The notes beneath the pieces were generated by a model that was not told where the DNA came from, did not search any database, and worked only from the letters and a program-made list of their open reading frames with translations. Below, in pieces: positions 26,539 to 58,216 of a stretch of 64,000 bases of DNA. The position numbers and the translations under genes were made by a program. This DNA is from Bacilli bacterium (lineage in GTDB: Bacteria > Bacillota_I > Bacilli_A > RFN20 > CAG-826), in the NCBI GenBank assembly GCA_017635465.1, contig JAGBLL010000036.1, positions 68,590 to 132,589 on the forward strand. The letters are read 5' to 3'. Position 1 is the first letter of the stretch. Every line of letters starts with the position of its first letter.

Positions 26539-29500
26539 ATGCATTATTTATTAATCCTAGATTCTTTCTGGGATAAAGAAATTGCCGCAGGCTATACCCT
26601 TAGGTCAATATTCGAATATTGGTGGATTGGGTTAATTATTATCATTGTTGCGGCGATAGCGCTAGTGGGTACATATTTCTTACTCAACTGGCTTTTTGGT
26701 CGTATGAAATTTAAAAGTGGCGATCAAGAAGCAGTTGATAATTATGTCAAAGCGCCTAAACAAGAAAAGAAAGAGATTGCTAAAAACACAACTGGTGCCG
26801 CTAAAAACGTCATCACTTGGAAAAGAATGAGAGTCTGGCTTATCCCAGTAGTGTGTGTTGTGGCGTTATTATCTTCCGCGGCTGCATCATTCTTACCTTC
26901 CGCTGCTTTTGCTAACTTGATCTTTACTCTTCGTGGTAGTCATGTTGACATCATCGATACAGAAACATCAAGGCAAGCTGCTGCTGAAGCTGAAAAGAAT
27001 GTTGTTACTGTGCAAGAAGAAGGTACTGTCTTACTTAAAAATAAAGACAATGCCTTACCACTAGATGTGAACACAAATAAGAAAATTAATATCTTTGGTT
27101 CATGTGCTTATGGCCTTTTCTTCAATAATGGTGGCTCTGGTGCGTTCCAAACTGATGGTAGAGTTAAGAATTTTCCAAGAACCGCGGTTAAATTAGAAGA
27201 AGCACTTGTGGAAGAAGGCTTTGAAATTAACAATAATTTATTTAACTTGGTTAAAAATTACTATAACGGCAAGAAAGTTTCTGTCGCGGAAAGTGATTAT
27301 AAGATTTTCTGTGGCATTAATACATTTGGTTATCCAGAAATCGTTCCTTCTGGTAATGGCGCAAAACTTGATCCAATTGATTATGAACTTCCAGTCAGTG
27401 CTTATGAAACCGCTTTTAATGAATTAGGTGGTAAGACCGCTCTTGAAGATGCAAAAGCATTCTCAGATACCGCAATATTTGCAATTACGCGACACGGTAC
27501 TGAAAGTGCGGATATGAAATATTCAGAATTAAAGCTTACTAATGCTGAATCCGCCGCTATTGAAATGCTTAAAGCGAATTTTGGTAAAGTTATTATCTTA
27601 TTCAATGTTCCAACAGTCGTGGAATCAGAATTCTTAGATGATCCAGAAATAAGCGCTGCTTTATTTATTGGTCATCCAGGTTTAACTGGCACAAAAGCTA
27701 TCGCCGAAATCATTTCTGGTAAAGTTAATCCTTCTGGCAAATTAGTGGATACATGGCCATACGATGTTAAAAGCGCACCATCTTACCAATGCTTTGGTAA
27801 CGATACCACATTAACTTATAATTCTGGTGCCGCTAATAGAGCGAAATTCCTTAATTATATTGAAGGTATTTATGTTGGTTATAGATATTATGTGACTCGT
27901 GCGATGGTTGATGCTGATTATAAATATGAAGATGCAGTCCAATATTCGTTCGGTCATGGCTTAAGCTATACAACATTTGATAAATCTATCGCTGAATATA
28001 AAGTTGATACAAAAGAACAAAAAGTATCTGTCACTGTTGAAGTGGAAAACACTGGTGCAGTCGCAGGTAAAGATGTCATTGAACTTTATACTCACGCTCC
28101 ATATACACCAGGTGGTATTGAAAAATCATGGTACTCATTAACTGCCTTCCAAAAGACAAATATCATCGAACCAGGTGAAACCAAGGCCTACAAACTAGAA
28201 TTTAGTTTTAGAGATATTGCTTCTTGGTCAACTGAAAAAGGCTATTACGTTTTAGAAAAAGGCGATTATGAATTCTCCATTAGAGACAATGTTTGGGATA
28301 TCGCCAAAACAAACAAAAATAATCGTGAAAACGCTAAAACAATGAACCTTGAAGAAGATGTTGAATTCAAAACTTCTTACCAAACTGGTAAAGCTTATGA
28401 AAATATCTTCCAAGAAGTTGAATTTGGTGGTGGTACTGAAAAGAATAAATACTTATCTAGAAATGACTTTGCGGGCACATGGCAAAATAAAGCTGACATC
28501 CCATTAGCGTCAAACGCTGAAAAGAGTCATTTCCCAGGTGGTCCAAGTAACTCTACATCTTCAAGTTCATTTACATTTCAAGACAATCAAATTGATGAAG
28601 AAACTAAACCACAAGATGTTCCTGCTGGCTTAACTTTAAGAGATTTAAAAGATGCAGCATGGGATGATCCACGTTGGGAAGACTTACTTAGTCAAATGTC
28701 TTTATCAGATATGGATAAATTAGTCGAATATGGTGGTTTCCAAACTGCAGCGATTGATAGTATCGGTAAAACCGCGACCGTTGACTACGATGGTCCAAGC
28801 GCGGCTTTCCATTCAGGCACAGGTCACCCAAGTGAAGTTATCGTTGCCTGTTCATGGTCAACTGACGTCGCTAGAGTTATGGGTGAATCAATTGGTAGAG
28901 AAGGCGCCGCTAGAGGCTTAACTGGCTGGTATGCTCCTGGTATCAATACCCATCGTTCACCATTTGGTGGCAGAAACTTTGAATATTATTCAGAAGATCC
29001 ATTAATTTCAGGTCTTATGGCGGGATATACTGCGCAAGGCACAATGAAATATGGTGTTTATACATACGCTAAGCACTTTATGTGCAACGACCAAGAATAT
29101 AACCGTGCTGGTGTCTTTGTTTGGGCAACCGAACAAGCACTTAGAGAAATCTATGCCCGTGGCTTTGAACTTTATAGTGATTTAGGCGGCATGGGTATGA
29201 TGTCTGCTTACAATAGCATCGGTTCTTGGTGGTGTGGTGGTAGTGAAGCCTTATTAACAAAATTATTAAGAGAAGAATGGGGCTTCCATGGTGTTGTCGT
29301 TACTGACTACGCTGGTAGTGATTACATGGCAACGCACATCGGCTTAAGAGCAGGTAATGACATGTGGTTAACTCCTAGCCAATTACCAGCCGCTATTAAA
29401 CCTTCAAGAGTGCGTTCGGCTTGCCCACATGATGGCGCAATCCTTGTGAGAAGAGCGGCGAAAAATATCCTCTTTGCCTGCGCTCATAGCAACAATGTCT

Positions 29501-29626: not shown

Positions 29627-29696
29627 GTAAGGTTATGCACAATAATCGCAATGTTATGCATTTAGATTGCGTAAAATTGTCATTAATTGTTATAGT
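29627..29696 (+). promoter_or_regulatory. Putative LytTR operator (class 1) and promoter of GH3-2
   Basis: Direct repeats GTAAGGTTATGCA (29627-29639) and GCAATGTTATGCA (29648-29660) have a 21-bp period. TATAGT (29691-29696) is the likely -10, starting 43 nt after the second repeat starts. No good -35 is present, as expected for an activated promoter. The same arrangement occurs before the gene at 35243. Confidence 0.65.
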
Positions 29697-29787: not shown

Positions 29788-32781
29788 ATGAATTTACCTA
29801 TCTTAGAGTCTTTCTTTGATAAGCCATTAATTGCTGGTTATTCCCTTGCCTCCATTTTCCAATATTGGTGGGTCGGCTTAATCATCATTATCGTGGCTGC
29901 GGTAGCTCTCGTTGGTGTCTATTTCCTTCTCAACTGGCTCTTTGGCCGTATGAGATTCAAAGAAGGCGACAAAGAAGCTTTAAAAGCTTATGACCAAGCT
30001 CCACGCGCTGAAAAGAAAGAAGCTGCTAAGTCAGCAAAAGGTCCAGTGAAAAATGTTATCACTTGGAAGAGAATGAGGGGTTGGTTAATTCCAGTAGTGT
30101 GTGTTGTCGCATTATTATCATCCGCGGCGGCATCATTCTTACCATCCAACGCATTCCAAAACTTATTAACAACATTAAAAGGTAGTGCTGTTGAAATTAT
30201 TGATACACCTACCTCAAAAGAAGCTGCTGCTCAAGCAGAAAAGAACGTCGTGTCCATTCAAGAAGAAGGCACAGTTCTCTTAAAGAACAAAAACAAATCC
30301 TTACCACTCAACTTAGAAACCAATAAGAAAGTTAACATCTTTGGTTCATGTGCTTTCGGTTTATTCTATGGTAATGGTGGTTCTGGTTCCTTCCAAACTG
30401 ATGGTCGTGTTAAATCCTTCCCAAGAACTGCTTTAAAACTTGAACAAGCAATGAAAGATGAAGGCTTCGAAATTAACGAAAACATCTTCAACATGATCAA
30501 GAATTACTATTCTAGTAATAAGAGAACAATCTCTGTTGCCCCATCAGATTACGATATTCAATGTGGTTTCAACAAATACAACTACTCTGAAATCGTTTCT
30601 AGTAAGGCTCCATATGATTATGAACCTCCAGTTTCTGCTTATGAAACACCATTTGATGAATTAGGTGGTAAAACATTATTAGAAGATGCTTTAGACTTCT
30701 CTGATACCGCTATCTTCTGTATCACAAGACGTGGTTCCGAAGACGAAGATATGAACCTCAGAGATTTACAACTCAAATCTAACGAAATCGCTGCTATCGA
30801 AATGCTCGAAGAGAACTTTGAAAAAGTCATTATCTTATTAAACGTTCCAACAGTTATCGAATCCGAATTCTTAGATGACACAGAAATCGACGCCGCTGTT
30901 TATATGGGTCACCCAGGTTTAACTGGTACCAAAGCAGTTGCCGAAATTCTCGCCGGTAAAGTCAACCCATCCGGTCACTTAGTTGACACATGGCCATATG
31001 ATGTTAAGAGTGCTCCATCTTACCAAAACTTTGGTAATGACACCACATTAACATATACTTCTGGTGCGGCTAATAGAGCTAAATTCACCAACTACCAAGA
31101 AGGTATCTATGTTGGTTACAGATACTATGTTACCGCCGCTAAAGCTGGCTATATCGATTACAATGATGAAGTTCAATTCTCATTCGGTCACGGCTTAAGT
31201 TATACAACATTTGATAAATCCATCGCTGAATTCAAAGTGGATGAAGCAAATCAAAAAGTTGAAGTCACAGTCGAAGTTAAGAATACTGGTGAAGTCGCTG
31301 GTAAAGATGTTATCCAACTCTATACCCACGCTCCATATATCCCAGGTGGTATTGAAAAATCATATTATTCCTTAACTGCTTTCCAAAAGACAAACGTCAT
31401 CGAACCAGGTGAAACAAAAGCTTACAAATTAGAATTCTCATTCAGAGACATCGCTTCTTGGAGCACCGCTAAAGGTTACTATGTCTTAGAAAAAGGCGAA
31501 TACGAATTCTCCGTTAGAGAAAACGTTTGGGATCTTGCTAAGACAGACGTTAAAGGTAGAGAAAACGCTAAGATTTTCGATCTAAAAGAAGAAGTCGAAT
31601 TCAAGAAATCTTACCAAACAGGTAAAGAATACGCCAACATCTTCCAAGATGTCGAATTCGGTGGTACAGATACAAAGAACGTCTACGTTTCTAGAAACGA
31701 TTTCGCAGGTACAATTCAAAAAACCGCTGATATCAATAGAGCATCTGCCGCTGACGCAAGTCATTTCCCAGGTGGTGCCTCTAACCAAACAGCTGGTCGT
31801 TCATTCTCATATCAAGACAACCAAATCGAAGGTGAATTAAGAGAACAAGGTAAAGACAATGGTCTCAAATTCAATGATTTCAAGAATGCAGCATGGGATG
31901 ATCCACGCTGGGAAAATTTAATTGACCAAATGTCCATTAAAGATTTACAAGATATCGTTGACCAAGGTTCCTTCAAAACCGCTAAGATTGATAGCATCGG
32001 CAAAGCCGGTACAACTGACTACGATGGTCCTGGTGCGGCCTTCCACTCTGGTACAGGTCACCCAAGTGAAGTTGTCGTTGCCTGTTCATGGGATTTAGAA
32101 ACCGCTAAAGTTATGGGCGAATCCATCGGTAGAGAAGGTGCTTCCCGTGGCTTAACAGGTTGGTATGCTCCTGGTATCAATACTCACCGTTCACCATTCG
32201 GTGGTAGAAACTTCGAATATTATTCAGAAGATCCACTCATCGCTGGTTTAATGGCTGGTTACACCTCTCAAGGTGCTGCTAAATACGGTGTCTATTGTTA
32301 TGCCAAACACTTCTTATGTAACGAACAAGAAAATAGCCGTGCTGGTGTCTTCGTTTGGGCAAGCGAACAAGCATTAAGAGAAATCTATGCTCGTGGCTTC
32401 GAAATCTACGTTGACTTAGGTGGTTTAGGCCTCATGTCCTCCTTCAACTGTGTCGGTTCCTGGTGGGCTGGTGGTAATGAAGCTTTATTAACAACTCTCT
32501 TAAGAGAAGAATGGGGCTTCCACGGTGTCGTCGTTACAGACTATGCTGGTCCAGACTACATGGCCACAAATATCGGCTTAAGAGCTGGTAATGACTTATG
32601 GTTAAATAAAGCTGGTTATGCTGCTAGCAATACATATAGCGCTACTCCACATGATGCTACAATCCTCATGAGAAGAGCTGCTAAGAACATCCTCTACGCC
32701 TGCGCTCACTCCAACAACGTTTGGACAGCAGAAGACTACAAGGCTGTCGGTATTGACGAAGTTGTCAAAACAAATAGCTAA
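29788..32781 (+). CDS. Membrane-anchored circularly permuted GH3 glycosidase (GH3-2)
   Basis: A 997-residue paralogue of GH3-1, alike over its whole length including two N-terminal membrane helices (about 27-52 and 98-117) and the Lys-rich loop. Order: GH3 alpha/beta domain, FnIII-like domain, TIM barrel with GWYAPGINTHRSPFGGRN, YAKHFLCNEQENSRAG and nucleophile Asp918 in GFHGVVVTDYAG. The start MNLPILESFFDKP is set by AAAAGGAG and by alignment with GH3-1; the 51-codon upstream extension is rejected. Codons such as AAC, TTC and GGT are used more than in GH3-1, which suggests higher expression. A class-1 LytTR-type repeat lies upstream and the RR/kinase pair follows downstream. Confidence 0.92.
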   Translation: MNLPILESFFDKPLIAGYSLASIFQYWWVGLIIIIVAAVALVGVYFLLNWLFGRMRFKEGDKEALKAYDQAPRAEKKEAAKSAKGPVKNVITWKRMRGWLIPVVCVVALLSSAAASFLPSNAFQNLLTTLKGSAVEIIDTPTSKEAAAQAEKNVVSIQEEGTVLLKNKNKSLPLNLETNKKVNIFGSCAFGLFYGNGGSGSFQTDGRVKSFPRTALKLEQAMKDEGFEINENIFNMIKNYYSSNKRTISVAPSDYDIQCGFNKYNYSEIVSSKAPYDYEPPVSAYETPFDELGGKTLLEDALDFSDTAIFCITRRGSEDEDMNLRDLQLKSNEIAAIEMLEENFEKVIILLNVPTVIESEFLDDTEIDAAVYMGHPGLTGTKAVAEILAGKVNPSGHLVDTWPYDVKSAPSYQNFGNDTTLTYTSGAANRAKFTNYQEGIYVGYRYYVTAAKAGYIDYNDEVQFSFGHGLSYTTFDKSIAEFKVDEANQKVEVTVEVKNTGEVAGKDVIQLYTHAPYIPGGIEKSYYSLTAFQKTNVIEPGETKAYKLEFSFRDIASWSTAKGYYVLEKGEYEFSVRENVWDLAKTDVKGRENAKIFDLKEEVEFKKSYQTGKEYANIFQDVEFGGTDTKNVYVSRNDFAGTIQKTADINRASAADASHFPGGASNQTAGRSFSYQDNQIEGELREQGKDNGLKFNDFKNAAWDDPRWENLIDQMSIKDLQDIVDQGSFKTAKIDSIGKAGTTDYDGPGAAFHSGTGHPSEVVVACSWDLETAKVMGESIGREGASRGLTGWYAPGINTHRSPFGGRNFEYYSEDPLIAGLMAGYTSQGAAKYGVYCYAKHFLCNEQENSRAGVFVWASEQALREIYARGFEIYVDLGGLGLMSSFNCVGSWWAGGNEALLTTLLREEWGFHGVVVTDYAGPDYMATNIGLRAGNDLWLNKAGYAASNTYSATPHDATILMRRAAKNILYACAHSNNVWTAEDYKAVGIDEVVKTNS

Positions 32782-32876: not shown

Positions 32877-33605
32877 ATGAGCGAAACATACATCAATATT
32901 GCTGTCGTGGAAGATTCCGCTGACGATTTAAACAATTGCTTGGCTTTACTAGATCGCTATAGTAATGAAAAGCATCTAAAATTTGACATCCAAACATTCA
33001 ATAGTGGCGATGCGTTTTTAATGCGTTTCAAAAGCCAATATGACTTCATCATTTTAGACATCAACTTGTCCTCACTTAATGGCATTGATGTGGCAAGAAC
33101 GATTAGAGAAAAAGATGAAGAAGTAATTATTATGTTCGCTACCAATTTAGCAAAATATGCGACTTCTGGTTATGAAGTCGACGCTATAGACTTTGTATTA
33201 AAGCCCTTATCCTATGCTTCTTTCTATTTGAGACTAGAAAGAGTGATGAAAAAGTTAAAGAAGAAAGATGACTTCTTCATCGTTGTACCATTCGAAGGTG
33301 GCTTTAACAAAATTAATATTAATGATGTCCTCTATGTTGAAGTTATATCTCATGACATAATCTTCCATCTAGTGGATGGTAATGAGATTACAACCTCAGG
33401 CACATTGAAGAAATACGAAGAGGAATTAAAAAAGCATTGGTTCATTAGATGCAATTCCTGCTATCTAGTTAACGCTCATAAAATTAAACGCGTTGAAAAA
33501 CTTGATATCCAATTAACTAATGACGAAACCATTGCGATCTCTCACCCAAAAAGAAAAGGTTTTATGGAAGCCTTTAAGAAATACATTATTGAAGAAGGCA
33601 AATAG
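32877..33605 (+). CDS. LytTR-family response regulator 1
   Basis: A 242-residue AgrA/LytR-type regulator. The receiver domain (about 1-125) has the acidic pair in VVEDSADD, phospho-acceptor Asp61 in FIILDINLSSLNG and the Lys in FVLKPLSYASF. The LytTR DNA-binding domain (about 140-240) includes NDVLYVEVISHD and FIRCNSCYLVNAHKI. It is 2 nt upstream of its kinase. LytTR domains bind paired direct repeats two helical turns apart; such repeats (21-bp period) lie before the genes on both sides of this pair, at 29627 and 35014, and before GH3-6. Confidence 0.94.
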   Translation: MSETYINIAVVEDSADDLNNCLALLDRYSNEKHLKFDIQTFNSGDAFLMRFKSQYDFIILDINLSSLNGIDVARTIREKDEEVIIMFATNLAKYATSGYEVDAIDFVLKPLSYASFYLRLERVMKKLKKKDDFFIVVPFEGGFNKININDVLYVEVISHDIIFHLVDGNEITTSGTLKKYEEELKKHWFIRCNSCYLVNAHKIKRVEKLDIQLTNDETIAISHPKRKGFMEAFKKYIIEEGK

Positions 33606-33607
33606 AC

Positions 33608-34942
33608 ATGTTTACACTTGATACATTGCTCACAATGTTTATCTCGTTCACAATCGAGATCATTGTGGCTGGTGTGATGTTAATTAAGCATCCTCTAACA
33701 TTTAGGTTTAAACCATACATTTCTATCCCTGTTGGCCTTTTGATTGCCTGCAGTGGTGGTGCTTTTAGTATTGTCTTTGTCTACTCGATTCTTAAACATT
33801 GGAATGAAGTGCTTAATGTCGTTTTTTATACTATTCCAATTTTGACCATTTTCTGTGGTTTCTTATTTGCCTATAAAATTAGTCCATTAAACTTAATGCT
33901 ACTTCTTTCTGTAGCATATACTTTCCAACACATGGCTTATCAATCAGGTGTTATTGTTTTAGACACTGGTTTAAGCACACAGATATTCTATGGAGTTGGT
34001 GGCGATATCAACCTCTATAATTTCTTCTATAATTTAATTCTTTACACGATTAAAGCGGGTGTCTATGTTGCTTGCTATTTCTCAATCGCTAGAACATATG
34101 TTAAATATTCAAAATACATTTTAGGAAGATGGTTTGTCATCACTCTTGGTGTAATGGTGTTCTTAGTTGTTAATGTTGTTAACGTTTATGTCGCACAACA
34201 TTTATATACCTTTGCGTTATTAAGAGGCATCTTATCAGGCACAATTATCTTATTCTGTATCTTATTTGATCTTGTTGTTGTTGGTGGCTTCAGAGTGGTT
34301 GAACATCGTCAAGAATCCACAATTATCAAAGCTACACTTAACGCTAAAGTGAGACAACAAGAAATGATGGAGAGCAATATCAACTTCATCAACATGAAAT
34401 GTCATGACTTAAGAAAAGAATTAAAAAGATTAAAAGCTAAGAAAGGCGATTTAAAAGATGAAGACTTCTGCATGCTTGAAGAATCACTTAACTTCTATGA
34501 TAGTTCTGTTAAAACAGGTAACGTTAATATCGACGCTTTAATCCAAGATAAACTTATTTATTGTAACGCCGTTGGTATTGAATTCACTTCCTTAGTGGAT
34601 GGTGATGCCTTTAAAGATTTAGCGACATCTGATATCTATTTCATGCTCACTAATATTATCGATAACGCTATTGAAGCGACAGAAAATATTGAAGAAAAAG
34701 AACATCGTGTCATCTCTTTGACCGCTTCAAGAAAACAAGGTGTCTTAGTCATTGAAGAAACAAATTATTACCGTGGCAAATTAGTGTTCAATAGTGATGG
34801 ATCAATTAAGACCACTAAAGAAGACAATCAGAAATACCATGGTTATGGTACAAAATCGATTGCCTATGTCGTTAAAAAATATCATGGTACGATGTACTAT
34901 GACACTAAAGATGAAATCTTTAAACTTAAGATTGTTATCTGA
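33608..34942 (+). CDS. GHKL sensor histidine kinase 1 (AgrC-like)
   Basis: A 444-residue membrane kinase. Six or seven helices occupy residues 1-215, then a coiled segment with the phospho-acceptor His266 in NMKCHDLRKELKRLK. The ATPase of the HATPase_c_5 type has its N box in LTNIIDNAIEATENI and its G box in YHGYGTKSIAYVVKKYHG. No AgrB or AgrD-like peptide gene is nearby. Given the locus, the signal is more likely a glycan breakdown product or cell-surface cue than a peptide pheromone, but that is inference. Confidence 0.92.
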   Translation: MFTLDTLLTMFISFTIEIIVAGVMLIKHPLTFRFKPYISIPVGLLIACSGGAFSIVFVYSILKHWNEVLNVVFYTIPILTIFCGFLFAYKISPLNLMLLLSVAYTFQHMAYQSGVIVLDTGLSTQIFYGVGGDINLYNFFYNLILYTIKAGVYVACYFSIARTYVKYSKYILGRWFVITLGVMVFLVVNVVNVYVAQHLYTFALLRGILSGTIILFCILFDLVVVGGFRVVEHRQESTIIKATLNAKVRQQEMMESNINFINMKCHDLRKELKRLKAKKGDLKDEDFCMLEESLNFYDSSVKTGNVNIDALIQDKLIYCNAVGIEFTSLVDGDAFKDLATSDIYFMLTNIIDNAIEATENIEEKEHRVISLTASRKQGVLVIEETNYYRGKLVFNSDGSIKTTKEDNQKYHGYGTKSIAYVVKKYHGTMYYDTKDEIFKLKIVI

Positions 34943-35013: not shown

Positions 35014-35083
35014 GTAAGATTATGCATAAATGATGTAAACTTACGCAAGATATATTTTTTATTGTTTTATTCTGCTTTATGAT
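35014..35083 (+). promoter_or_regulatory. Putative LytTR operator (class 1) and promoter of the lipoprotein operon
   Basis: GTAAGATTATGCA (35014-35026) and GTAAACTTACGCA (35035-35047) repeat with a 21-bp period. TATGAT (35078-35083) starts 43 nt after the second repeat starts, exactly as before GH3-2. A leader of about 150 nt follows; apart from short imperfect hairpins nothing is recognised in it. Confidence 0.65.
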
Positions 35084-38541: not shown

Positions 38542-38585
38542 CCTTTCTGTAGAAGGGGCGCAGCGCTTGAGCGCCCCTTTTATTT
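38542..38585 (+). terminator. Terminator after the esterase with competing upstream hairpin
   Basis: AAGGGGCGC (38553-38561) pairs with GCGCCCCTT (38571-38579), then T-rich. CCTTTC (38542-38547) can pair with GAAGGG (38552-38557) instead. Confidence 0.88.
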
Positions 38586-38645: not shown

Positions 38646-38663
38646 ATAAGAGCATAAAGAAAT

Positions 38664-40761: not shown

Positions 40762-40786
40762 AATTTCATCACAAAAATAAACCATT

Positions 40787-40870: not shown

Positions 40871-40912
40871 GCTTACGACTGAAGTTCAAACTTCAAAAAT
40901 AGGAGGAAATCT

Positions 40913-46218: not shown

Positions 46219-46237
46219 TAGAAAACTTCATAAAATT

Positions 46238-46273
46238 CCTTTCTCGTGAAAGGGGCGCTCAATGCGCCCTTTT
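46238..46273 (+). terminator. Terminator after GH3-3 with competing upstream hairpin
   Basis: AAAGGGGCGC (46249-46258) pairs with GCGCCCTTTT (46264-46273). CCTTTC (46238-46243) pairs perfectly with GAAAGG (46248-46253), which overlaps the terminator arm. Confidence 0.88.
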
Positions 46274-46309
46274 CATTAAGAAAAACTTCTCAGCCATATA
46301 AACGAGAAG

Positions 46310-46891
46310 TTAATCATGATATTCATTATTTTTAAGAGAACTAACACCGTTTTTAATTAAATTAGTTATTAACTGTATCATATCTTCTTTTGGCATTGCT
46401 CTTTTTGTTTTAATCCAGCTACCATACATTGAACTAACACTCATATGATAGTGTTTGAAGACGATACTTTGTACCATTGGATCTAAATGAGAAAAAGTGT
46501 GAAGCATTTCTTTTTCTTTTAAAAGGATTAACGCGCGTTTTCTTGATAACTCCTTAGTATAGAAATAAGTATCCGTGGAGTTTATTTTTTGATAAACAGG
46601 ATTACTTTCGTTTAAATCAAAAAACGCCCTTACAACTGTCTCTACATCTTCCAACAGATTAATACCTCTAACGCGTTGATAAAAGCCTTTTATCGCTTCT
46701 TCTTGTAACTCAACAAAGATATCATCAAGTTGCTTATAATGTAAATAAAAGGTTCTTCTATTAAAACCGGCGGTATCACATAATTCTTTAACAGTGATTT
46801 TTAAATAGTCATCGTAATCAAGTATTAACTTTTTAAAAGCTTCTTTAAAATGTTTTTTTGTTTTTTGGACGCGTGGATCTAGTTCGTTCAT
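46310..46891 (-). CDS. TetR/AcrR-family transcriptional regulator
   Basis: A 193-residue regulator. The N-terminal helix-turn-helix is DDYLKITVKELCDTAGFNRR followed by TFYLHYKQLDDIF, the TetR signature. The C-terminal part is helical and resembles the TetR C-terminal dimerisation domain of Gram-positive DhaS-like members. It is divergent from GH3-4, with a 330-bp shared intergenic region holding a 9-bp perfect inverted repeat. It may repress itself and GH3-4. No clear ribosome site is visible. Confidence 0.88.
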   Translation of the reverse strand: MNELDPRVQKTKKHFKEAFKKLILDYDDYLKITVKELCDTAGFNRRTFYLHYKQLDDIFVELQEEAIKGFYQRVRGINLLEDVETVVRAFFDLNESNPVYQKINSTDTYFYTKELSRKRALILLKEKEMLHTFSHLDPMVQSIVFKHYHMSVSSMYGSWIKTKRAMPKEDMIQLITNLIKNGVSSLKNNEYHD

Positions 46892-46967
46892 TATTTTTTA
46901 CACACTTTTCGTGCTTTTGCGAATTAAGTTTACTAGAAAGATATGCGTATTACTACATAAATATATG

Positions 46968-46990
46968 TAATATTTTCAACTAAAATATTA
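46968..46990. promoter_or_regulatory. Perfect 9-bp inverted repeat, candidate TetR operator
   Basis: TAATATTTT (46968-46976), 5-nt centre, AAAATATTA (46982-46990). It lies about 80 bp from the tetR-like start and 70 bp upstream of the GH3-4 -35. Confidence 0.5.
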
Positions 46991-47059
46991 TAAAAATGCG
47001 ACTAGCCACAATAGGCAACAATAATTAATGCACATGTTCCTTAAATGTGTGTACTTTCA

Positions 47060-47088
47060 TTTACCAATAGCAAGATTGTCAATATAAT
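47060..47088 (+). promoter_or_regulatory. GH3-4 promoter
   Basis: TTTACC (47060-47065), 17-nt spacer, TATAAT (47083-47088). Confidence 0.6.
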
Positions 47089-47221
47089 AACGATAGGAAT
47101 GTCATATTTTTGATTTCGCAAAGTTATCTATTTTCTATGGAGATTTTTTGTGGCTGATATTCTGACTAATTTGGTACTTACGCGTATCGCGTATTTATAA
47201 GCTTTTTTAAAGGAGACTCGT

Positions 47222-50200: not shown

Positions 50201-51370
50201 GGTAAAGGTGGTGTCCGTGATGGTCTTAAAGCAGAAGATGTCATTCCAGAATCTCCAACTCAATACTACGCTATCCGTATGGCCGCTACATATATCTGCT
50301 GGGTTGGCGCAAACTCCAACGCCATTCAAAATGGTGTCACAACAGTTGGTGCTACAGGCAATACAACAACAGCCGCTAACATCTTCTCATTTGATAATGA
50401 ACAAACAATTAGATATGGTAATCAAGTTGAAATCGATGTCAACGCTGATGCTAAACACATTCCATCAGATTGCTCTGTGAGATATGAAATCGCCGGTAAC
50501 TTACCAGAAGGCTTATCTTTCAATGCTTCCACAGGAAAAATCGTTGGTAGTGCTACAGCTCTTGGTACATACAATGTGACAGTTAGAGCAATTATTGATA
50601 ATTACATTTTAAGAACAGCTTCATTAAGAGTTAATGTTGGCCCAACAGCCCAAGTTAACGAAACTGTTTACTTAACACCAACCATTTATAAAGTCGGTGA
50701 TCACTATCAAAATAACCCAACATATGAAATTACTGTTGCTAATGAACCAACAGTCAGTGGCTTCGAAGGCGCTGAAATCGTTACTTTAGATGCAGAAGCC
50801 GCTACTGCTTTAGGATTAGAAGCTGGTACATATATCAAATTATCTTCTGCTGAAGCTGGTTTATTTAACATCCGAGTCAGTCAAGCAATCACATATAAAA
50901 GAAACGCTTGGCAAACAAGAAATGCTACTGTTACTACAGACTATAGCATCATGATCGGTACTCCAGAAGTTACTCCAGATCCAGTTGTCCATGGTGGTAT
51001 TGTTACTTCCGTTATCAACGATCAAGGTCACTTAGTTATTACTTACGAAGATGGCACAGTCGCTGATTTAGGCTTAGTAGTTGGTGCAAACGGTCAAGAC
51101 GGCGCACAAGGTCCTGCTGGCCCAGCCGGTGAAAAGGGTGATACAGGCGCACAAGGTCCTGCTGGCCCAGCCGGTGCTGACGGTAAAGATGGTGCACAAG
51201 GTCCTGCTGGCCCAGCCGGTGCTGACGGTAAAGATGGCGTTGACGGTAAAGATGGTACTTCCGCAAAAGGTTGTGGTGGCTCTATCGTTGCTACATCAGG
51301 CGTCATGGCATTATTCGCCGGTTTAGGCATTGCCATTATCTCTCTCAAGAGATCCAAAAAAGATAACTAA
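47222..51370 (+). CDS. Exported permuted GH3 with Ig-like, collagen-like and C-terminal anchor (GH3-4)
   Basis: A 1,382-residue protein. The N-terminal signal sequence (helix about 9-28, Ala-rich cleavage region) is followed by a permuted GH3: alpha/beta domain (MQESITLLKNKDDALPL), FnIII-like domain (PFGFGLSYTQF), then the barrel (GWYGPAMNIHRSPFSGRN, MKHYALNDQETNRMDG, nucleophile Asp942 in GFMGESVTDYYS). A putative Ig domain (about 1075-1140, IAGNLPEGLSFNASTGKIVG) and another beta domain follow, then 20 collagen-like Gly-X-Y triplets (1288-1347). The tail is KGCGGSIV, a hydrophobic helix and SLKRSKKDN. This tail has the motif-helix-basic layout of a sorting signal but is not LPxTG. AAAGGAG precedes the ATG. 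Confidence 0.9.
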   Translation: MDKKQKKNVKVLTGVLALAAGMAIASATSAAPSYASFAGEQKGKFYPDFSTYAEEQEFAGNLNVKLMQESITLLKNKDDALPLAKGSNISLLGTHSYRPFLGGTGSGSIGGSFATLPDSLTEAGLNLNAAIADYYEAHDYKSNVCVQGMFTSASQSVDGPAEEVAQLKNTFQLYGDAAVITLGRIGGEGDDLLRNQVGTSGNIKVNQDVTKHSLELFDTEKDLIELAKQHCDKVIILINSANAMEIPELEDDPDIDAIVWIGQPGETGLKGVGPVLVGDVAPSGKLADVWPADFKKDPTWFNFGNNQQNNAYDAESQQFASEYANTVTKKEGSTVANGTRYALEEEEGIYLGYKWYETAAADDVLDKIAIYEAEKGVIPEDKDGDKYYNRSTGVVYPFGFGLSYTQFTKQFVSTAEQIKAAVNASSSLESSIPVKVKVTNTGTVAGKEVVQLYNHAPYTLNGIEKAEVSLAGFAKTDLLRPGKSQVVTVDVRVGDLASFDYNDANANGFSGWEIEAGNYGLRLQDNSHDCLAELELALNAKEFKKDGSAATGLTESENYNVLSKGDDYDTLLPIKKHEADKDGVTFKLMTRSNLVSSFPTAPKAEERVYPDVVLALLTNSNQRSGVSSYSEGDEGYDQWAKYYRYTGYFNGSDDLPTDPWYKTNADIPASWTQLATARQSGTQTEVLIQQMSGLDFNSDRIVPEGHPYAGSTEAEAWNKFMNQLTYAELAAFVQNGGYRTPGLNAIGKKQSGDQDGPAQLKGTRNGGDFVTNFNQAGTPWCCEVNIASSWNVDLAHKQGLCVGNESLFNGSNGWYGPAMNIHRSPFSGRNFEYYSQDGVHSGIIAGAVVSGAQSKGCNVFMKHYALNDQETNRMDGIATYNSEQAIRENILKPFEYATKVGHATAVMTAFNRSGSIPAFANYMFNEEILRQEWGFMGESVTDYYSASMGKGNYLQRGGCHMALNGNLNYNTNVTGTSTNTNAITGIWDATLRDGKGGVRDGLKAEDVIPESPTQYYAIRMAATYICWVGANSNAIQNGVTTVGATGNTTTAANIFSFDNEQTIRYGNQVEIDVNADAKHIPSDCSVRYEIAGNLPEGLSFNASTGKIVGSATALGTYNVTVRAIIDNYILRTASLRVNVGPTAQVNETVYLTPTIYKVGDHYQNNPTYEITVANEPTVSGFEGAEIVTLDAEAATALGLEAGTYIKLSSAEAGLFNIRVSQAITYKRNAWQTRNATVTTDYSIMIGTPEVTPDPVVHGGIVTSVINDQGHLVITYEDGTVADLGLVVGANGQDGAQGPAGPAGEKGDTGAQGPAGPAGADGKDGAQGPAGPAGADGKDGVDGKDGTSAKGCGGSIVATSGVMALFAGLGIAIISLKRSKKDN
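51101..51235 (+). repeat. Three tandem 45-bp repeats coding collagen-like GAQGPAGPAG units
   Basis: Units at 51101-51145, 51146-51190 and 51191-51235 each code 15 residues beginning GAQGPAGPAG; the second and third are identical in protein. They lie in the collagen-like stalk (51083-51262) of GH3-4 and could vary in copy number between strains. Confidence 0.9.
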
Positions 51371-51410
51371 TTGCTAATTTGCAGTTAAGTTGTTAATTAC
51401 AAACGAATAT

Positions 51411-51441
51411 GGCTCCCGTGAACACTATGCTCACGGGGGCC
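51411..51441 (+). terminator. GC-rich hairpin after GH3-4
   Basis: GGCTCCCGTGA (51411-51421) pairs with TCACGGGGGCC (51431-51441). It lacks a U-run, so it may be a partial terminator or 3'-end stabiliser between GH3-4 and the next lipoprotein gene. Confidence 0.6.
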
Positions 51442-51492
51442 TTATCAAGCATTAAAATGCATGCATATGCACGCATAGAAAAGAGGGTATTT

Positions 51493-52527
51493 ATGAAAAT
51501 CAACAAATTATTAGGTTTGACTTTGCTCTTGAGTTCCATGACAATCTCTGCTTGTAGTGGTAAAGCTTCCTCTAACGAAGAAAAGAAACCATCAAGTGCT
51601 ACACCTAGCGTTGTTGAACCAAGTTCGAATACATCGTCAAGTTCAGTTGTTCAACCAAGTTCAAACAGCGCTCCTAAATCAAGCTCAAGCAGCACTCCTA
51701 AATCAAGTTCTAGCGCTCAACCAAGTTCAAACAGTGCTCCTAAATCAAGCTCAAGCGCTCAACCAAGTTCAAATTCTCAACAAAGTTCACAAAGCAGTAG
51801 TGGCTCTAATGTCGATCAATATCTTTTGAAACACGCTGAAGGTCAAACTGCTAATTATATTTTTGAAGCTGAATGTACAGACTTAAGAGGTAAAAGTGGC
51901 TCTGGATATTCTGGTGGTGCAACCGGTTCAGGTTTAGCTACTCATAATGCTTCAGACATTTCATTTGTCACTTTCTTATATACAGAAGGAATCTCTGTTA
52001 ATTTCTTCGTCGCATGTGATAGAGATGTCAGCGACGCTAAATTAAGAGCGAGATTCGGTGGCGAATTTATTCATGTCTTACTAAGTCCAGATAATTACAC
52101 AATTCGTGTTGACCAAGCCATTGATTCTGCTTTCCTTACAGACTATGACCCTGATAATTTAGATTCTGATGGTTCATTAGGAAACTGGGATTCATTCTTC
52201 CTTAACTATTACAGTGTTGAAGAAACAAATGGCTATTTCCTTAGCGAATGGGAATGCGAAAGTATCGATATTGATGCTTCTAATCAAAGCGATGTTGTCG
52301 GATGGAATACTTTCGATATCACATTTGCTCTTTCTCTTAAACAAGGCATCAATTGCATCTCATTAATTACTGATAATGAAGAAATTACAGGCGATGCTCC
52401 TCATGGCACAATGACCGCAACAGCACCTGTTATTGACTATATTTCCATTGAAACAAGTGCTCAATTAGGTGTTTTTAACGCAAAAGATAATGGCGAAGGT
52501 GAAAATGCTGTTCACTTCGCTGCCTAA
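51493..52527 (+). CDS. Ser-rich lipoprotein with CBM-like domain
   Basis: A 344-residue lipoprotein with lipobox ISAC (Cys21) and a Ser/Pro/Asn-rich linker (about 23-110, repeats of PSSNSAPKSSSS) that could span the cell wall. A beta-sandwich domain (about 118-335) follows, beginning YIFEAECTDLRGKSGSGYSG and ending with VIDYISIE, the pattern of family 6/35 carbohydrate-binding modules. It starts at 51493 after AGAGGG; a frame reaching back to 51409 has no ribosome site and would hide the signal peptide. GH3-5 follows after 19 nt, so it probably delivers substrate to that enzyme. Confidence 0.82.
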   Translation: MKINKLLGLTLLLSSMTISACSGKASSNEEKKPSSATPSVVEPSSNTSSSSVVQPSSNSAPKSSSSSTPKSSSSAQPSSNSAPKSSSSAQPSSNSQQSSQSSSGSNVDQYLLKHAEGQTANYIFEAECTDLRGKSGSGYSGGATGSGLATHNASDISFVTFLYTEGISVNFFVACDRDVSDAKLRARFGGEFIHVLLSPDNYTIRVDQAIDSAFLTDYDPDNLDSDGSLGNWDSFFLNYYSVEETNGYFLSEWECESIDIDASNQSDVVGWNTFDITFALSLKQGINCISLITDNEEITGDAPHGTMTATAPVIDYISIETSAQLGVFNAKDNGEGENAVHFAA

Positions 52528-52546
52528 TAGTAAGGAGCTTTAATCT

Positions 52547-55528
52547 ATGGGTATTAGAAAAAGTGGATTAATTCCATGGGCAATTACTACAGCTGTTTTA
52601 ACTGGTGTATTAATTACCGCTAACGTTCTTTTAACAGGACCTTTAAAAGGTATTGTTTCTACCGCTTTAAGTGATAGAGGCAGAATGGAACTCATTAATG
52701 AAGATGGTTCTAGATTTAAACTAGATGAAGGTATTACTGATAAAGCATCTGCTAAAGAAAATGGTAATAAAACAAACATTAATATTGTTCGTGAAGGTAT
52801 TACACTTCTTAAAAACAAGGATAATAACGCTCTTCCATTAGCAAAAGGAGCTAAATTATCTATCTTTGGTAAGAATTCGTCTAATGTCGCTATTGGTGGA
52901 TCTGGCTCTGGTAGTGCTTCTACTGATGGTATGATTGATTTCTTCTCTTCACTAGAAAAAGCAGGTTTTACATACAATCCTACGTTAAAAGCTTTCTATG
53001 ATGATAATACAAAATCTGGGGCAGGTAGAGATAAAAACAACAAAGACTTAGATAGTGGTAAACCTATCGAATTAGTGGAATCTTATGTTGGTGAAACCGA
53101 AATCACTGCTTATACAGATGATATTTGGAATAGCTGTAATGAATATAAAGACGCTGCTTTAATTATGATTACACGTATCGGTGGTGAAGGTGCTGATTTA
53201 CCAAGAACACCAACTGATCATATTTTAAAATTACGTCCAGCGGAAAAAGACTTAATTAACAAAGTCAAGACAATGGGTTTTGGTAAAGTAGTATTAATGC
53301 TCAATACCGCGACATCATTAGAACTTGGCGATGTGCAAAAAGATGAAGGTGTTGATGCCATTTTATGGATTGGCTATGACGGTACAGCTGGTTTGACCGC
53401 TGTGGGTGAAGTCTTAAAAGGCGAAACTAATGATGGCGTTAAATTTTCTCCTTCTGGTAAAACAGTTGATATTTATCCAGCAGATTTTACAAAAGATCCA
53501 ACATGGAATAACTTTGGTGGTAACATCGGTGTTGTTTCTCAAGGTGAAGGTAGCAAGTACGTTGGTGTTTCTGGCGATTGTTATTACACAATGGCCAAAA
53601 GAGGACCAGTTGATTCCCAAATCTATTTTGCCGACTATGAAGAAGGCATTTACTACGGTTATAGATATTATGAAACCGCCGCAGCGGATGGCTATATCAA
53701 CTATGATGAAGCCATTGTTTATCCGTTTGGTTATGGTTTGAGCTATACAAACTTCTCTTGGGAATTAAAGAATAAGGCTAGTATTCCTACTACTTTAACA
53801 AAAGACACAAAGATGACTTTTGAAGTTGAAGTTACTAATACTGGTACATATCCAGGTAGAGATGTTGTTGAACTCTATGTCACACCACACTATAACGTTG
53901 GTGGTTTAGATAAAGCCGCTAAGATTCTTGTTGGCTTTGATAAAACAGAATTATTACAACCAGGTGAAAAAGAAACATTAAAGATTACAATTGATTCACC
54001 ATATTCATATGCTTCTTATGATTATAAAGGTGTTACTGGTCAAAAAGGCTATGTTGTTGAAGCAGGTAATTATTCTTTCACATTAGGTACAGATAGCCAT
54101 CACGCAAAAGAAATGTCTGATGCTGTTATAACCGCTAATGTTGCAGATAACATCCGCTATGAAAAAGATCCTATTACAGATAATGAGATTAAAAATCTTT
54201 TCTCTGATAACGAAGATCCATATTTAAACGGGGACGCTCAACTTGGCTCAATTATGCACCGTAATGACTTTGCGGGAACATGGCCTCAAACAAGAAGTGA
54301 AAACGAAAAGAAAATCGGTGGTGAAAAGATTAAAGAAGGATGGGAAATCTCTTCTGATTGGATTAGCAAGATGAAGGATTATACTCCAAAGCCAAATAAT
54401 CCTATCAATATTACTGAAATGCCAGTTACTGGTGCAGATAATGGCATTAAATTTACTGACTTAGTAATGTTAGATTACAATGACAAAAAATGGGACGAAT
54501 TCATTGATCAATTAACTAAAGAAGAAATGAAGACATTGATTAATGAAGGTGCCTTTATCACTAGCGCAATTGCTAGATTAGGCGTTCCTCCAACCGATAA
54601 TACCGATGGTCCAGTTGGTTGGGTCAACTTTATTGACCAGAAAACATTCACAGGCACATGTTCTTATTGCTGTGAAGTCGTTATCGCTTCCACATGGAAT
54701 GTAGACCGTGTTTATGATATGGGTAGAGCAGTTGGTAACGAAGGTCTTGTTGGTAATACACAAAATTCGATCAATAGACCATATACTGGCTGGTACGCTC
54801 CAGGTCTTAATATTCACCGTTCTCCATTTGGTGGTAGAAACTTCGAATACTATTCAGAAGATCCATTCTTAAGTGGTATTTTAGCGGCTTCTATTTCTAA
54901 AGGTACTTGGTCAAAAGGCTGCTATACAACATTAAAGCACTTCGCGGTTAATGAAACCGAGACACATAGAATGGGCTTATTAACATGGCTTGATGAACAA
55001 AACTTAAGAGAAAACTATCTTAAAGGCTTTGAAATCGCTGTTAAAGGTGGAAATAGTGACTTGAATAATCACGAATACTTTGGCGAAGATAAAGCCACAA
55101 AACCAGTTTCTGTTATGACTTCATTTAACAGAATTGGTGAAAGATGGACAGGTGGCGACTATCGCGTTAACACCCTCATCTTAAGAGAAGAATGGGGCTT
55201 TGAAGGATTTACAATCTGTGACTTCAACACCAATGAATTCATGGTGGAAAAAGATATGTTCTATTCCGGTGGTGACCTTAATTTACAAGGCGCCGGTAAC
55301 GTATGGAATCCAGACTTTAGTAGTCCTAATGATGTTGAAGTTATGAAGAAATGTTCTAAAAACATCCTCTATGTTGTAGCAAATAGTAATGCAGTTAGAG
55401 GTGAATTTAAAGTCCATATGCCAAATTGGCAAATCGGCTTATATATTGGAACAGGTGTAGTGGCCGCTGGATTATTAACTTGGGGCTTCTTCGTCTTCTT
55501 TAAAATCTTTAGACGCAAAACGAAGTAA
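52547..55528 (+). CDS. Permuted GH3 glycosidase anchored at both ends (GH3-5)
   Basis: A 993-residue protein with an N-terminal anchor helix (about 8-30) and a C-terminal helix (about 962-985) followed by RRKTK. The domain between is extracellular: alpha/beta GH3 domain (REGITLLKNKDNNALPL, GYDGTAGLTAVGEVL), FnIII-like domain (PFGYGLSYTNF, VTNTGTYPGRDVVELY), then the barrel (GWYAPGLNIHRSPFGGRN, LKHFAVNETETHRMG, nucleophile Asp892 in GFEGFTICDFN). The usual NDQE motif reads NETE and TD reads CD, so the pocket may differ from the others. AAGGAG precedes the ATG. It is co-transcribed with the Ser-rich lipoprotein. Confidence 0.9.
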   Translation: MGIRKSGLIPWAITTAVLTGVLITANVLLTGPLKGIVSTALSDRGRMELINEDGSRFKLDEGITDKASAKENGNKTNINIVREGITLLKNKDNNALPLAKGAKLSIFGKNSSNVAIGGSGSGSASTDGMIDFFSSLEKAGFTYNPTLKAFYDDNTKSGAGRDKNNKDLDSGKPIELVESYVGETEITAYTDDIWNSCNEYKDAALIMITRIGGEGADLPRTPTDHILKLRPAEKDLINKVKTMGFGKVVLMLNTATSLELGDVQKDEGVDAILWIGYDGTAGLTAVGEVLKGETNDGVKFSPSGKTVDIYPADFTKDPTWNNFGGNIGVVSQGEGSKYVGVSGDCYYTMAKRGPVDSQIYFADYEEGIYYGYRYYETAAADGYINYDEAIVYPFGYGLSYTNFSWELKNKASIPTTLTKDTKMTFEVEVTNTGTYPGRDVVELYVTPHYNVGGLDKAAKILVGFDKTELLQPGEKETLKITIDSPYSYASYDYKGVTGQKGYVVEAGNYSFTLGTDSHHAKEMSDAVITANVADNIRYEKDPITDNEIKNLFSDNEDPYLNGDAQLGSIMHRNDFAGTWPQTRSENEKKIGGEKIKEGWEISSDWISKMKDYTPKPNNPINITEMPVTGADNGIKFTDLVMLDYNDKKWDEFIDQLTKEEMKTLINEGAFITSAIARLGVPPTDNTDGPVGWVNFIDQKTFTGTCSYCCEVVIASTWNVDRVYDMGRAVGNEGLVGNTQNSINRPYTGWYAPGLNIHRSPFGGRNFEYYSEDPFLSGILAASISKGTWSKGCYTTLKHFAVNETETHRMGLLTWLDEQNLRENYLKGFEIAVKGGNSDLNNHEYFGEDKATKPVSVMTSFNRIGERWTGGDYRVNTLILREEWGFEGFTICDFNTNEFMVEKDMFYSGGDLNLQGAGNVWNPDFSSPNDVEVMKKCSKNILYVVANSNAVRGEFKVHMPNWQIGLYIGTGVVAAGLLTWGFFVFFKIFRRKTK

Positions 55529-55578
55529 AAGTATCTCAATAATTAAATAATTTAGATTACTTATTCACTTCATAAATT

Positions 55579-55610
55579 CCTTTTTATAGAGGGGCGCTCT
55601 GGCGCCCTTC
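55579..55610 (+). terminator. Terminator after GH3-5 with competing upstream hairpin
   Basis: GAGGGGCGC (55589-55597) pairs with GCGCCCTTC (55602-55610). CCTTTT (55579-55584) can pair with GAGGGG (55589-55594) using G-U pairs. The U-tract is broken by C. Confidence 0.78.
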
Positions 55611-55622
55611 TTCCTTAAAAAG

Positions 55623-55694
55623 GTCAGATTATGTTAAAAAATAGACATTTTATGTAACATTGTTTCAATGTTATTAACGATATGTTAATATAAT
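55623..55694 (+). promoter_or_regulatory. Putative LytTR operator (class 1), palindrome and promoter of GH3-6
   Basis: GTCAGATTATGTT (55623-55635) and GACATTTTATGTA (55644-55656) repeat with a 21-bp period and resemble the class-1 sites. TAACATTG-TTT-CAATGTTA (55655-55673) is a perfect palindrome next to them. TATAAT is at 55689-55694, 45 nt after the second repeat starts (43 at the other two sites). Confidence 0.45.
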
Positions 55695-55744: not shown

Positions 55745-58216
55745 ATGGCTAGAAAACATCAAGATATAATTGATCAATTAACTTTAAAAGAAAAGGCAAG
55801 TCTCGTTAGTGGTAAAGATTTCTGGCAAACTGTCAACATTGACAGAGTTGGTATTCCAAGTGCTTTCCTTAGCGATGGCCCTCATGGCGTCAGAAGACAA
55901 GCCGCTGCTGCGGACCATTTAGGTTTAAACGCTTCCATTCCAGCGACATGTTATCCAACTGCTGCGACAATGGCCAATTCCTGGGACCCAGAATTAGGTG
56001 AAGGTTTAGGCCAAAGATTAGGTCAAGAAGCCGCTGTTCAAAAAGTTAACGTCTTATTAGGCCCTGGTATGAATATGAAGAGAAATCCACTTTGTGGACG
56101 TAACTTCGAATACTTCTCAGAGGATCCTTATTTAGCAGGTAAAATGGCTGCAGGTTATGTTAGAGGTATCCAATCAAATGGTATCTCCGCTTGCGTTAAG
56201 CACTTTGCTTGTAATGACCAAGAAGAAAACAGAATGACATTAGATAGTGTTCTTGATGAAAGAACATTTAGAGAAATATATTTAACCGCTTTTGAAATTG
56301 CTGTTAAAGAAGGCAAGACAAAATCAATCATGTCTGCCTATAACTTAATCAACGGTGTTTACGCTAATGAAAATGAACACTTATTATGCGATATCCTTCG
56401 TAAAGAATGGGGCTTTGGTGGTTTAGTGGTCACTGACTGGGGTGGCAATAATGATGGTGTTTTATCACTTAAATGTGGTAACCAATTAGAAATGCCAGGT
56501 ACACCAGATAGACCAGAAGAAGTTATTAAAGCGATTGAAAATGGTGAATTAGAAGAATCAGTTTTAGACGATAATCTTGATGTCTTATTAGATACCATCT
56601 TCGATACAATGGAAAATGGTGTTAAGAAAGCACCTGAAAAATTCGATGTTGAAGAACATCATGCTTTCGCTGAAAAATGCGCGGAAGAAAGTGCTGTTCT
56701 TTTAAAGAATGATGGTGTCCTTCCATTAAAGAAAGAAGAAAAAGTAGCCTTTATTGGTGACTTCTTATATTTACCAAGATATCAAGGTGCGGGTTCATCT
56801 ATCGTTAACCCAACAAAACTTGATAACACAGTTGATTTATTAAAGAATTTAGAACTCGATATCGTCGGTTCCGCACGTGGTTTTAATAGATATGGTAAGA
56901 AGAACAAAAAGCTCTTAAAAGAAGCCTTAGAATTAGCCGCAAAAGCGGATACAGTCGTCTTATATCTCGGTTTAGATGAAGTTACTGAAGCCGAAGGCTT
57001 AGATAGAAGTAACGCCAAGATTGAAAATAATCAAATCGAATTGGTTAAACAAGTTAAAGCTTTAGGTAAGAAAATCGTCGTTGTTCTCTCTTGTGGCTCC
57101 GCTGTTGAATTACCATTCGTTGATGATGTTGATGGTTTATTACATTGCTATTTAAACGGTCAAGCTGGTGCGCAAGCGACATTAAATATCTTAGAAGGTA
57201 AAGTAAATCCTTCTGGTAAATTATCTGAAACATATCCAATCGTTTATGAAGATGTTGCTAGTAGTGATAATTTCCCAAGCCACACAAGAACAATCGAATA
57301 TAGAGAAGCTTATGGTATCGGCTATAGATATTTTGAAAAAGCCAATGTGGAGACAAGATTCCCATTCGGCTTCGGTCTTAGCTATACAAAATTTGAATAT
57401 TCAAATATCAAAATAAGCGATAAGGGTGTCAATTTCGAAATCAAAAACGTCGGTGATGTCGATGGTAAAGAAATTGCTCAATTATATGTTGGCTTAAAGA
57501 ACAGCGTTGTTATTAGACCAGTCAAAGAATTAAAAGGCTTCATTAAAGTCTTCTTAAAGGCTGGTGAATCTAAACGCGTTGAAATTCCATTTGATGATAA
57601 GACATTTAGATACTTCAATACCAAAACAAATAAATGGGAAATCGAAAAAGGTATCTATGATATCTATGTCGGCGCTGCCGTCAATGATATCCGCTTAAGT
57701 GGTTATTTTGAACAAGAAGGCACAGGCGCTGAAGCACCATATAATATTGATGAATTACCAAATTATGCTTCTGGTAGATTAAGAAATGTTCCAGATGAAG
57801 AATTTGCGAAATTATTAGGTCATGAAATTCCTAATGGTGCACTTCCATTCTATAAGAAGAACAGAATGGTCATCGACTATAACACCACATTCAGTGAATT
57901 ACGTTATTCTAAACGCTGGATTGGCCGTTTAGTGGGTAAAGCTATTCCTTGGTTCACAAGAGTGCTCCGCAAAATGGGTAATCGTGTCTTAGCGAATACA
58001 TTAGTCATGGGTGTTGTCCATCAACCAATGAGAGGTATGTCAAGATTCTCTGGTGGTGGCCTCCGCATGAGCCAATTAGATGGCTTAATCATGATTTTCA
58101 ATGGCCACTTCTGGAAAGGTTTACATCACTTCAACAAAGAAGGGCGTAAATACAAGAAGATTGCTAAAGCCGAAAAGAAAGCACAAAAAGAAGCAGAAGC
58201 AGCTCAAAACAAATAG
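55745..58216 (+). CDS. Canonical, apparently cytoplasmic GH3 glycosidase (GH3-6)
   Basis: An 823-residue GH3 with the usual order and no signal or anchor helix. The TIM barrel comes first: FLSDGPHGVR, GPGMNMKRNPLCGRN, VKHFACNDQEENRM and nucleophile Asp231 in GFGGLVVTDWGG. The alpha/beta domain (EESAVLLKNDGVLPL, LNGQAGAQATLNILEG) and FnIII domain (PFGFGLSYTKF, VGDVDGKEIAQLY) follow. A basic C-terminal extension (about 705-823) seen in other Firmicutes GH3 proteins ends in a Lys/Ala/Glu-rich helix. It would hydrolyse imported oligosaccharides or glycosides left by the surface enzymes. AAGGAG precedes the ATG. Confidence 0.93.
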   Translation: MARKHQDIIDQLTLKEKASLVSGKDFWQTVNIDRVGIPSAFLSDGPHGVRRQAAAADHLGLNASIPATCYPTAATMANSWDPELGEGLGQRLGQEAAVQKVNVLLGPGMNMKRNPLCGRNFEYFSEDPYLAGKMAAGYVRGIQSNGISACVKHFACNDQEENRMTLDSVLDERTFREIYLTAFEIAVKEGKTKSIMSAYNLINGVYANENEHLLCDILRKEWGFGGLVVTDWGGNNDGVLSLKCGNQLEMPGTPDRPEEVIKAIENGELEESVLDDNLDVLLDTIFDTMENGVKKAPEKFDVEEHHAFAEKCAEESAVLLKNDGVLPLKKEEKVAFIGDFLYLPRYQGAGSSIVNPTKLDNTVDLLKNLELDIVGSARGFNRYGKKNKKLLKEALELAAKADTVVLYLGLDEVTEAEGLDRSNAKIENNQIELVKQVKALGKKIVVVLSCGSAVELPFVDDVDGLLHCYLNGQAGAQATLNILEGKVNPSGKLSETYPIVYEDVASSDNFPSHTRTIEYREAYGIGYRYFEKANVETRFPFGFGLSYTKFEYSNIKISDKGVNFEIKNVGDVDGKEIAQLYVGLKNSVVIRPVKELKGFIKVFLKAGESKRVEIPFDDKTFRYFNTKTNKWEIEKGIYDIYVGAAVNDIRLSGYFEQEGTGAEAPYNIDELPNYASGRLRNVPDEEFAKLLGHEIPNGALPFYKKNRMVIDYNTTFSELRYSKRWIGRLVGKAIPWFTRVLRKMGNRVLANTLVMGVVHQPMRGMSRFSGGGLRMSQLDGLIMIFNGHFWKGLHHFNKEGRKYKKIAKAEKKAQKEAEAAQNK

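Follow-up and report, generated by a model that had tools for sequence, protein, structure and literature searches.

GH3 modules and their LytTR regulators at one variable chromosomal site in a gut Bacilli genome

Among described systems, those closest to the locus considered here are three polysaccharide utilisation loci of Butyrivibrio proteoclasticus B316 (PUL7, 21 and 33), in which three LytTR regulators all have a secreted GH3 enzyme with a C-terminal transmembrane (TM) helix nearby (Kelly et al. 2010, PMC2914790); the LytTR–GH3 link is given there in two sentences covering the three cases, with no box, cognate module or evolution. RR[LytTR] is also listed among the regulators of gpPULs, the definition of which requires a transporter (Sheridan et al. 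2016, PMC5320581). The view taken in a first-pass annotation of the present DNA, that LytTR control would be unlike described Gram-positive loci, was thus mistaken, since both papers already have it. As to the enzymes, the permuted rumen GH3 enzyme GlyA1 is a beta-glucosidase/xylosidase (PMC5104943, PMC11233000), and for enzymes of its type cello- and xylo-oligosaccharides and lichenan are substrates too. Described LytTR sites comprise two repeats of 9–11 nt with a spacer of 11–13 nt (PMC4847170).

The stretch of DNA analysed (the window) comprises 64,000 nucleotides, positions 68590–132589 of contig C14 in a genome of 1.83 Mb in 137 contigs (G000). The closest named relatives of this genome, MAGs from rumen and gut, carry the labels Erysipelotrichaceae, Bacillales or Bacilli, so that it is itself probably a MAG, as are probably all of the genomes compared. 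The gene content that the first-pass annotation listed for the block at 26539–58216 is confirmed, with six GH3 proteins, four lipoproteins (one of them an esterase), two GHKL/LytTR pairs and a TetR-like gene; within these limits Pfam finds neither a transporter family nor any GH family besides GH3. Five of the GH3 proteins (26539, 29635, 42550, 47222 and 52547) have the permuted order GH3_C, Fn3-like, GH3_N, and only that at 55745 has the canonical order; response regulator and LytTR domains occur at 32877 and 40009 and those of GHKL kinases at 33608 and 38664, the lipoproteins contain Big_2 and CBM-like domains, and 36898 has an EstA-type Ig domain with an alpha/beta-hydrolase. Of the membrane anchors or export signals claimed for the five permuted enzymes, anchors were found, as N-terminal pairs of TM helices in GH3a and GH3b and as N- and C-terminal TM helices in GH3c–e, anchors and lipoboxes alike being called from hydropathy and motif only. 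Lipoboxes are present at 35243, 36898 and 40913; at 51409 the lipobox SMTISAC comes after an internal Met, so that the listed start is too far upstream. Scanning the whole 64-kb window with Rfam and for tRNA genes returned nothing.

The genome has 16 GH3s in all (counted as GH3_C matches), and nine of these lie within about 71 kb of contig C14, a clustering that exceeds chance in 1.83 Mb. Upstream of the window, the same contig carries a GH3–GH3–lipoprotein–GH3 array without LytTR (L010, 6452–17620), and similar arrays occur in other genomes of the genus. Directly downstream of the block lies a dlt-like AMP-binding/MBOAT operon, the AMP-binding gene of which (58234–59709) has 73% identity to its counterpart in the closest relative, G010, against 94–99% for the flanking genes; this suggests that an allele was replaced locally, next to the MBOAT gene (61860).

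Comparison of synteny across 16 genomes of the genus, taken up below, divides the block into modules, all genes being on the forward strand unless stated otherwise. Module A begins with GH3a (26539–29565; Pfam, hydropathy), a permuted GH3 with two N-terminal TM helices, and its tandem duplicate GH3b (29788–32781; Pfam, orthologs), also permuted and 73% identical; the listed GH3b start at 29635 is probably wrong and 29788 the likely one, because orthologs are ~998 aa long and a regulator box (described below) lies on the listed start. There follow the LytTR response regulator RR1 (32877–33605; Pfam) and HK1 (33608–34942; Pfam, hydropathy), a multi-TM GHKL kinase with no recognised sensor domain, in which Pfam finds HATPase_c_5 alone. 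Next come a lipoprotein in which Big_2 and CBM6/35-like domains occur twice each (35243–36832; Pfam, fold) and an esterase lipoprotein made up of an EstA Ig-like domain and an alpha/beta hydrolase (36898–38505), with 3doh as its PDB relative. The ortholog of the CBM lipoprotein in locus L031 matches CBM_6 weakly; for the window's CBM lipoprotein itself the predicted fold is usable, and the PDB matches are generic beta-sandwich and Big_2/CBM proteins that indicate no ligand. CBM part and esterase form one lipoprotein in four loci from other genera, and the permuted GH3s of three fused loci (L053, L070 and L082) form a well-supported clade of their own.

Module B consists of the GHKL kinase HK2 (38664–40034; Pfam, which gives HATPase and a weak SPOB_a match), the LytTR response regulator RR2 (40009–40761; Pfam), a lipoprotein with Gly-rich, Big_2 and C-terminal regions (40913–42538; Pfam), the fold model of the last of these being poor (mean pLDDT 41), and GH3c (42550–46218), an in-frame fusion of a 4-TM protein of about 217 aa with a permuted GH3. 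The junction of the two parts of GH3c reads CAG in the window as against a stop, TAG, in three relatives. Small proteins with 4–5 TM helices (about 140–220 aa) adjoin membrane-anchored permuted GH3 genes at several loci (L012, L048, L052, L057, L062, L077, L083, L092 and others); they fall into several groups unrelated by BLAST, and Pfam gave no reliable match for the 4-TM partners.

Module C comprises a TetR-like gene on the reverse strand (46310–46891), the lipoprotein at 51409–52527, with a Ser-rich linker and a further domain, and two permuted GH3s: GH3d (47222–51370), with Ig and collagen-like parts and a C-terminal TM helix, and GH3e (52547–55528; Pfam, hydropathy), with TM helices at both ends. 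The TetR regulator of the first-pass annotation has weak support at 46310 from a TetR-type model, DhaS, the match of which is far below cut-off, and there is no Pfam match. Its divergent intergenic region with GH3d contains a near-perfect palindrome (46966–46992), a candidate TetR operator. GH3e is 41% identical to the third GH3 of the L010 trio; the idea that module C is a copy of that genus-wide trio was nevertheless set aside, as the grouping of GH3d is weak and the lipoproteins are unmatched by BLAST. The block is closed by the cytosolic canonical GH3 (55745–58216; Pfam), which is syntenic in the genus.

In all six GH3 proteins the catalytic pair could be recognised, the nucleophile Asp lying in VTD, ITD or ICD motifs and the acid/base Glu in an R-x-G-x-E-x-x-D region, as could the KH...N-x-x-E...R glycone motif; these calls rest on reading by eye, a pattern search having missed or misplaced several of the residues. 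The residue after the nucleophile is Tyr, Tyr, Ala, Tyr and Phe in GH3a–e, respectively, and Trp in the cytosolic enzyme. In GlyA1 a Trp in this position stacks on the glycone (a property of that enzyme, and not necessarily one that defines the subfamily), and because it is replaced in the surface enzymes their specificity may differ from that of GlyA1.

The exo-acting GH3s present are candidate polysaccharide degraders. With so many of them, and no endo-acting GH in the block, it is also conceivable that what they do is to free the outer sugar from plant secondary-metabolite glycosides such as saponins and flavonoid glycosides, rather than to serve polysaccharide use; the cytosolic GH3, for which the nearest NCBIfam model is an exo-alpha-(1->6)-L-arabinopyranosidase (below cut-off), and a GH78 rhamnosidase in a sister locus would fit such a role. 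However, the presence of a CBM lipoprotein hints at a polymer or the cell wall as ligand, and the oligosaccharides and lichenan accepted by GlyA1-type enzymes also speak against it, so that we consider this alternative unlikely, if worth keeping in mind. Nothing in the evidence points to mucin as the target.

The history of the modules is best followed at the hotspot, by which is meant the stretch that runs from htpG/hsp20 to the cytosolic GH3 and whose contents differ by genome. In two genomes (G006 and G002) the cytosolic GH3 is present but no surface GH3 separates it from the heat-shock genes; in three (G011, G014 and G008) a single surface GH3 does; G009 (split over two contigs), G010 and G012 have module A, the common form; G005 and G007 have A and B; and G000, the window's own assembly and the only one with module C, has all three. 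Module B stands alone in G004 and G003, and its components (HK2, RR2, lipoprotein, 4-TM protein and GH3c) are kept together in at least two other genera. The closest relative, G010, has mostly 96–99% protein identity in the block and lacks modules B and C, a stretch of ~17 kb (approximately 38586–55666), near both edges of which there are similar terminator hairpins (38540 and 55577). Thus the single 32-kb locus originally proposed resolves in the sister genomes into at least three modules at one hotspot which have independent histories. The genes of modules A and B each stay together across the genus and are not scattered in the way that would have refuted the first-pass view. This distribution suggests that whole cassettes were added stepwise at one chromosomal spot, module B probably later than A, though losses may have occurred instead of additions, and since the genomes are probably MAGs and module C is present in one assembly, module C may stem from a chimeric assembly. 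The series G010, G007 and G000 offers stepwise differences of a glycan locus among close relatives.

Upstream alignments revealed conserved 9-bp direct repeats, 21 bp apart, and each response regulator has its own direct-repeat box of this kind at the promoters of its module. The RR1 box, AAGGTTATG-N12-AATGTTATG, occurs on the forward strand at 29630–29658, ~157 bp before the likely start of GH3b (at the same distance in L027 and L031, and present also in L032, L044 and L008); at 35017–35045, before the CBM lipoprotein (perfect in G012, G005, G007, G009 and L008, at a distance of 226–237 bp across relatives); and at 55626–55654, before the cytosolic GH3. It also precedes a GH3 in L053, from another genus. 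The RR2 box, TTTGTCCCA-N12-TTTATCCCA, lies on the same strand 79 bp before HK2 (38585–38612), the corresponding distances in L032, L033 and L091 being 79, 80 and 72 bp, and is found in L042 too; a weaker copy with 1–2 mismatches precedes the Big_2 lipoprotein (40787–40814), as it does in L033. These boxes fit the LytTR-promoter pattern in repeat length, spacing and conservation in orthologs.

Before the cytosolic GH3, the RR1 box is present (0–2 mismatches) in 6 of 6 genomes with a linked RR1, as against a degraded or absent box with 3–5 mismatches in four genomes without any LytTR and one with 4 mismatches in G004, which is without RR1. A motif-free test, in which distinct repeats at 21 bp were counted against those at other spacings, gave 14 against a mean of 1.4 (maximum 5) for loci of the genus and 20 against a mean of 4.1 (maximum 10) for loci of the family, compared with 2 against 1.6 for loci without LytTR; LytTR loci without GHKL gave 7 against 1.0, so that the 21-bp signal reflects LytTR binding in general. 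That this is a block of surface glycosidases under GHKL/LytTR regulation of its own is thus supported by conserved boxes at its promoters as well as by genus synteny. Matches to the RR1 pattern at 48892 and 52140 (module C) and at 44340 (module B) were rejected as boxes, being intracoding and with 2 mismatches, and module C was assigned neither an RR1 nor an RR2 box. Outside the block, an RR1-like 21-bp pair (1 mismatch) at 7672, which could be chance, lies upstream of the gene at 7791, which by eye looks like a PEP carboxykinase. RR1 and RR2 are paralogues that lie a few kb apart and have boxes that differ, which would make them a clean system for studying LytTR specificity.

Counted over the genus, all 20 LytTR regulators found share their contig with a GH3 no more than about 7 kb away, and in other genera of the family (inspected as +/-8-kb stretches) a GH3 accompanies 30 of 35 GHKL/LytTR loci, nearly always permuted and TM-anchored, as against 0 of 10 LytTR loci without a GHKL kinase; in reading these counts it should be borne in mind that orthologs are not independent and that contig ends truncate several of the family loci. 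Even so, the pairing looks like a family-wide rule. The third LytTR/GHKL pair of the genome (L012 and L013, contig C26), with a box of the TTTGGCATA type, has GH2, GH78, GH43-like, two permuted GH3, UxuA, UxaC, KDPG aldolase and a pfkB kinase as neighbours, and no transporter was seen at this locus.

The first-pass annotation had called the two systems AgrCA-like, which is apt for the GHKL-LytTR domain make-up. That make-up could also mean that these are Agr-like loci for peptide quorum sensing which happen to control surface enzymes, but no AgrB exceeded the cut-off in the 16 genus genomes and no small propeptide gene was noticed beside the kinases (small ORFs having been viewed unsystematically), so that the quorum-sensing sense of the term is not supported and this explanation seems very improbable.

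Somewhat less remote, but still improbable, is remodelling of the cell's own surface glycans (e.g. glucosylated teichoic acid or S-layer sugars), with the GH3s trimming self-made glycosides and the GHKL kinases sensing the state of the envelope. A block without a transporter, membrane-tethered GH3 enzymes and the dlt-like operon directly downstream would all suit it; against this, foraging on plant glycans is where an esterase and CBM modules are typically met, the third LytTR pair has GH2, GH78, GH43-like and uronate-catabolism genes around it, and GH3 copy number and content vary among related genomes.

We therefore read the hotspot as probably holding two or three stacked cassettes for surface-glycoside foraging, each with its own regulator. 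The module structure, the domain and catalytic make-up, the conserved boxes and the co-occurrence of RR1 box and RR1 can be read directly from the sequences; activation as the direction of regulation, the sensed ligand, the substrate and the uptake route we infer. In module A, HK1 would sense a cue and RR1 would bind its own 21-bp direct repeats and so activate GH3b, the CBM lipoprotein–esterase pair and the cytosolic GH3. A plant glycan or glycoside might then be held at the cell surface by the CBM lipoprotein and relieved of ester groups by the esterase, and the membrane-anchored GH3s would take single beta-linked sugars off its non-reducing end. Module B would follow the same plan with HK2/RR2 and GH3c, and module C is probably TetR-controlled. 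Released sugars would be imported by transporters encoded elsewhere, and uptake via another locus is plausible: the genome has no PTS EIIC (PTS_EIIC), but at other places it encodes two sets of ABC importer genes, with binding proteins of SBP_bac type, which, going by these protein families, may import sugars.

More broadly, and here we would put the case for and against at about even, the GHKL/LytTR pairs may represent a dedicated class of glycoside-sensing switch in this gut Bacilli family, with its own 21-bp box, exchanged as cassettes, needing no local transporter, and in each case tied to a permuted GH3 with a membrane anchor, which a 4-TM partner and CBM lipoproteins often accompany. If right, a LytTR box next to a permuted GH3 would be a simple way to read regulons and to deorphan GHKL kinases in gut Bacilli that are uncultured and of whose carbohydrate sensing little is known.

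Set against known systems, LytTR regulators beside TM-anchored GH3s, LytTR in Gram-positive PULs and permuted rumen GH3s are already known; what is added is the generality of the LytTR–GH3 link, the cognate boxes and the modular history. The block shares with the B316 loci a LytTR near a TM-anchored GH3 in a rumen Firmicute, but here the link extends over 20 genus LytTRs and 35 family GHKL loci, with 21-bp boxes and gain or loss of modules. With gpPULs it shares clustered enzymes and regulators, LytTR among those listed, and it has transcriptional regulators in RR1, RR2 and the TetR-like gene, together with boxes; however, because the definition of Sheridan et al. requires a transporter and 26539–58216 has none, it is not a gpPUL in that sense. 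Its permuted enzymes resemble GlyA1 and BrGH3A (PMC5104943, PMC11233000) in sandwich-FnIII-barrel order, rumen origin and catalytic pair, but are TM-anchored, several being beside or fused with 4-TM proteins. BtsSR and PyrSR (LytS/LytTR; PMC10653868) likewise combine a membrane kinase with a LytTR regulator and respond to an extracellular metabolite; the 5TMR_LYT domain was not detected by Pfam in HK1 or HK2, and the putative targets here are glycosidases, not transporters. The putative switch class would have a role comparable to that of the hybrid two-component PUL regulators of Bacteroidetes.
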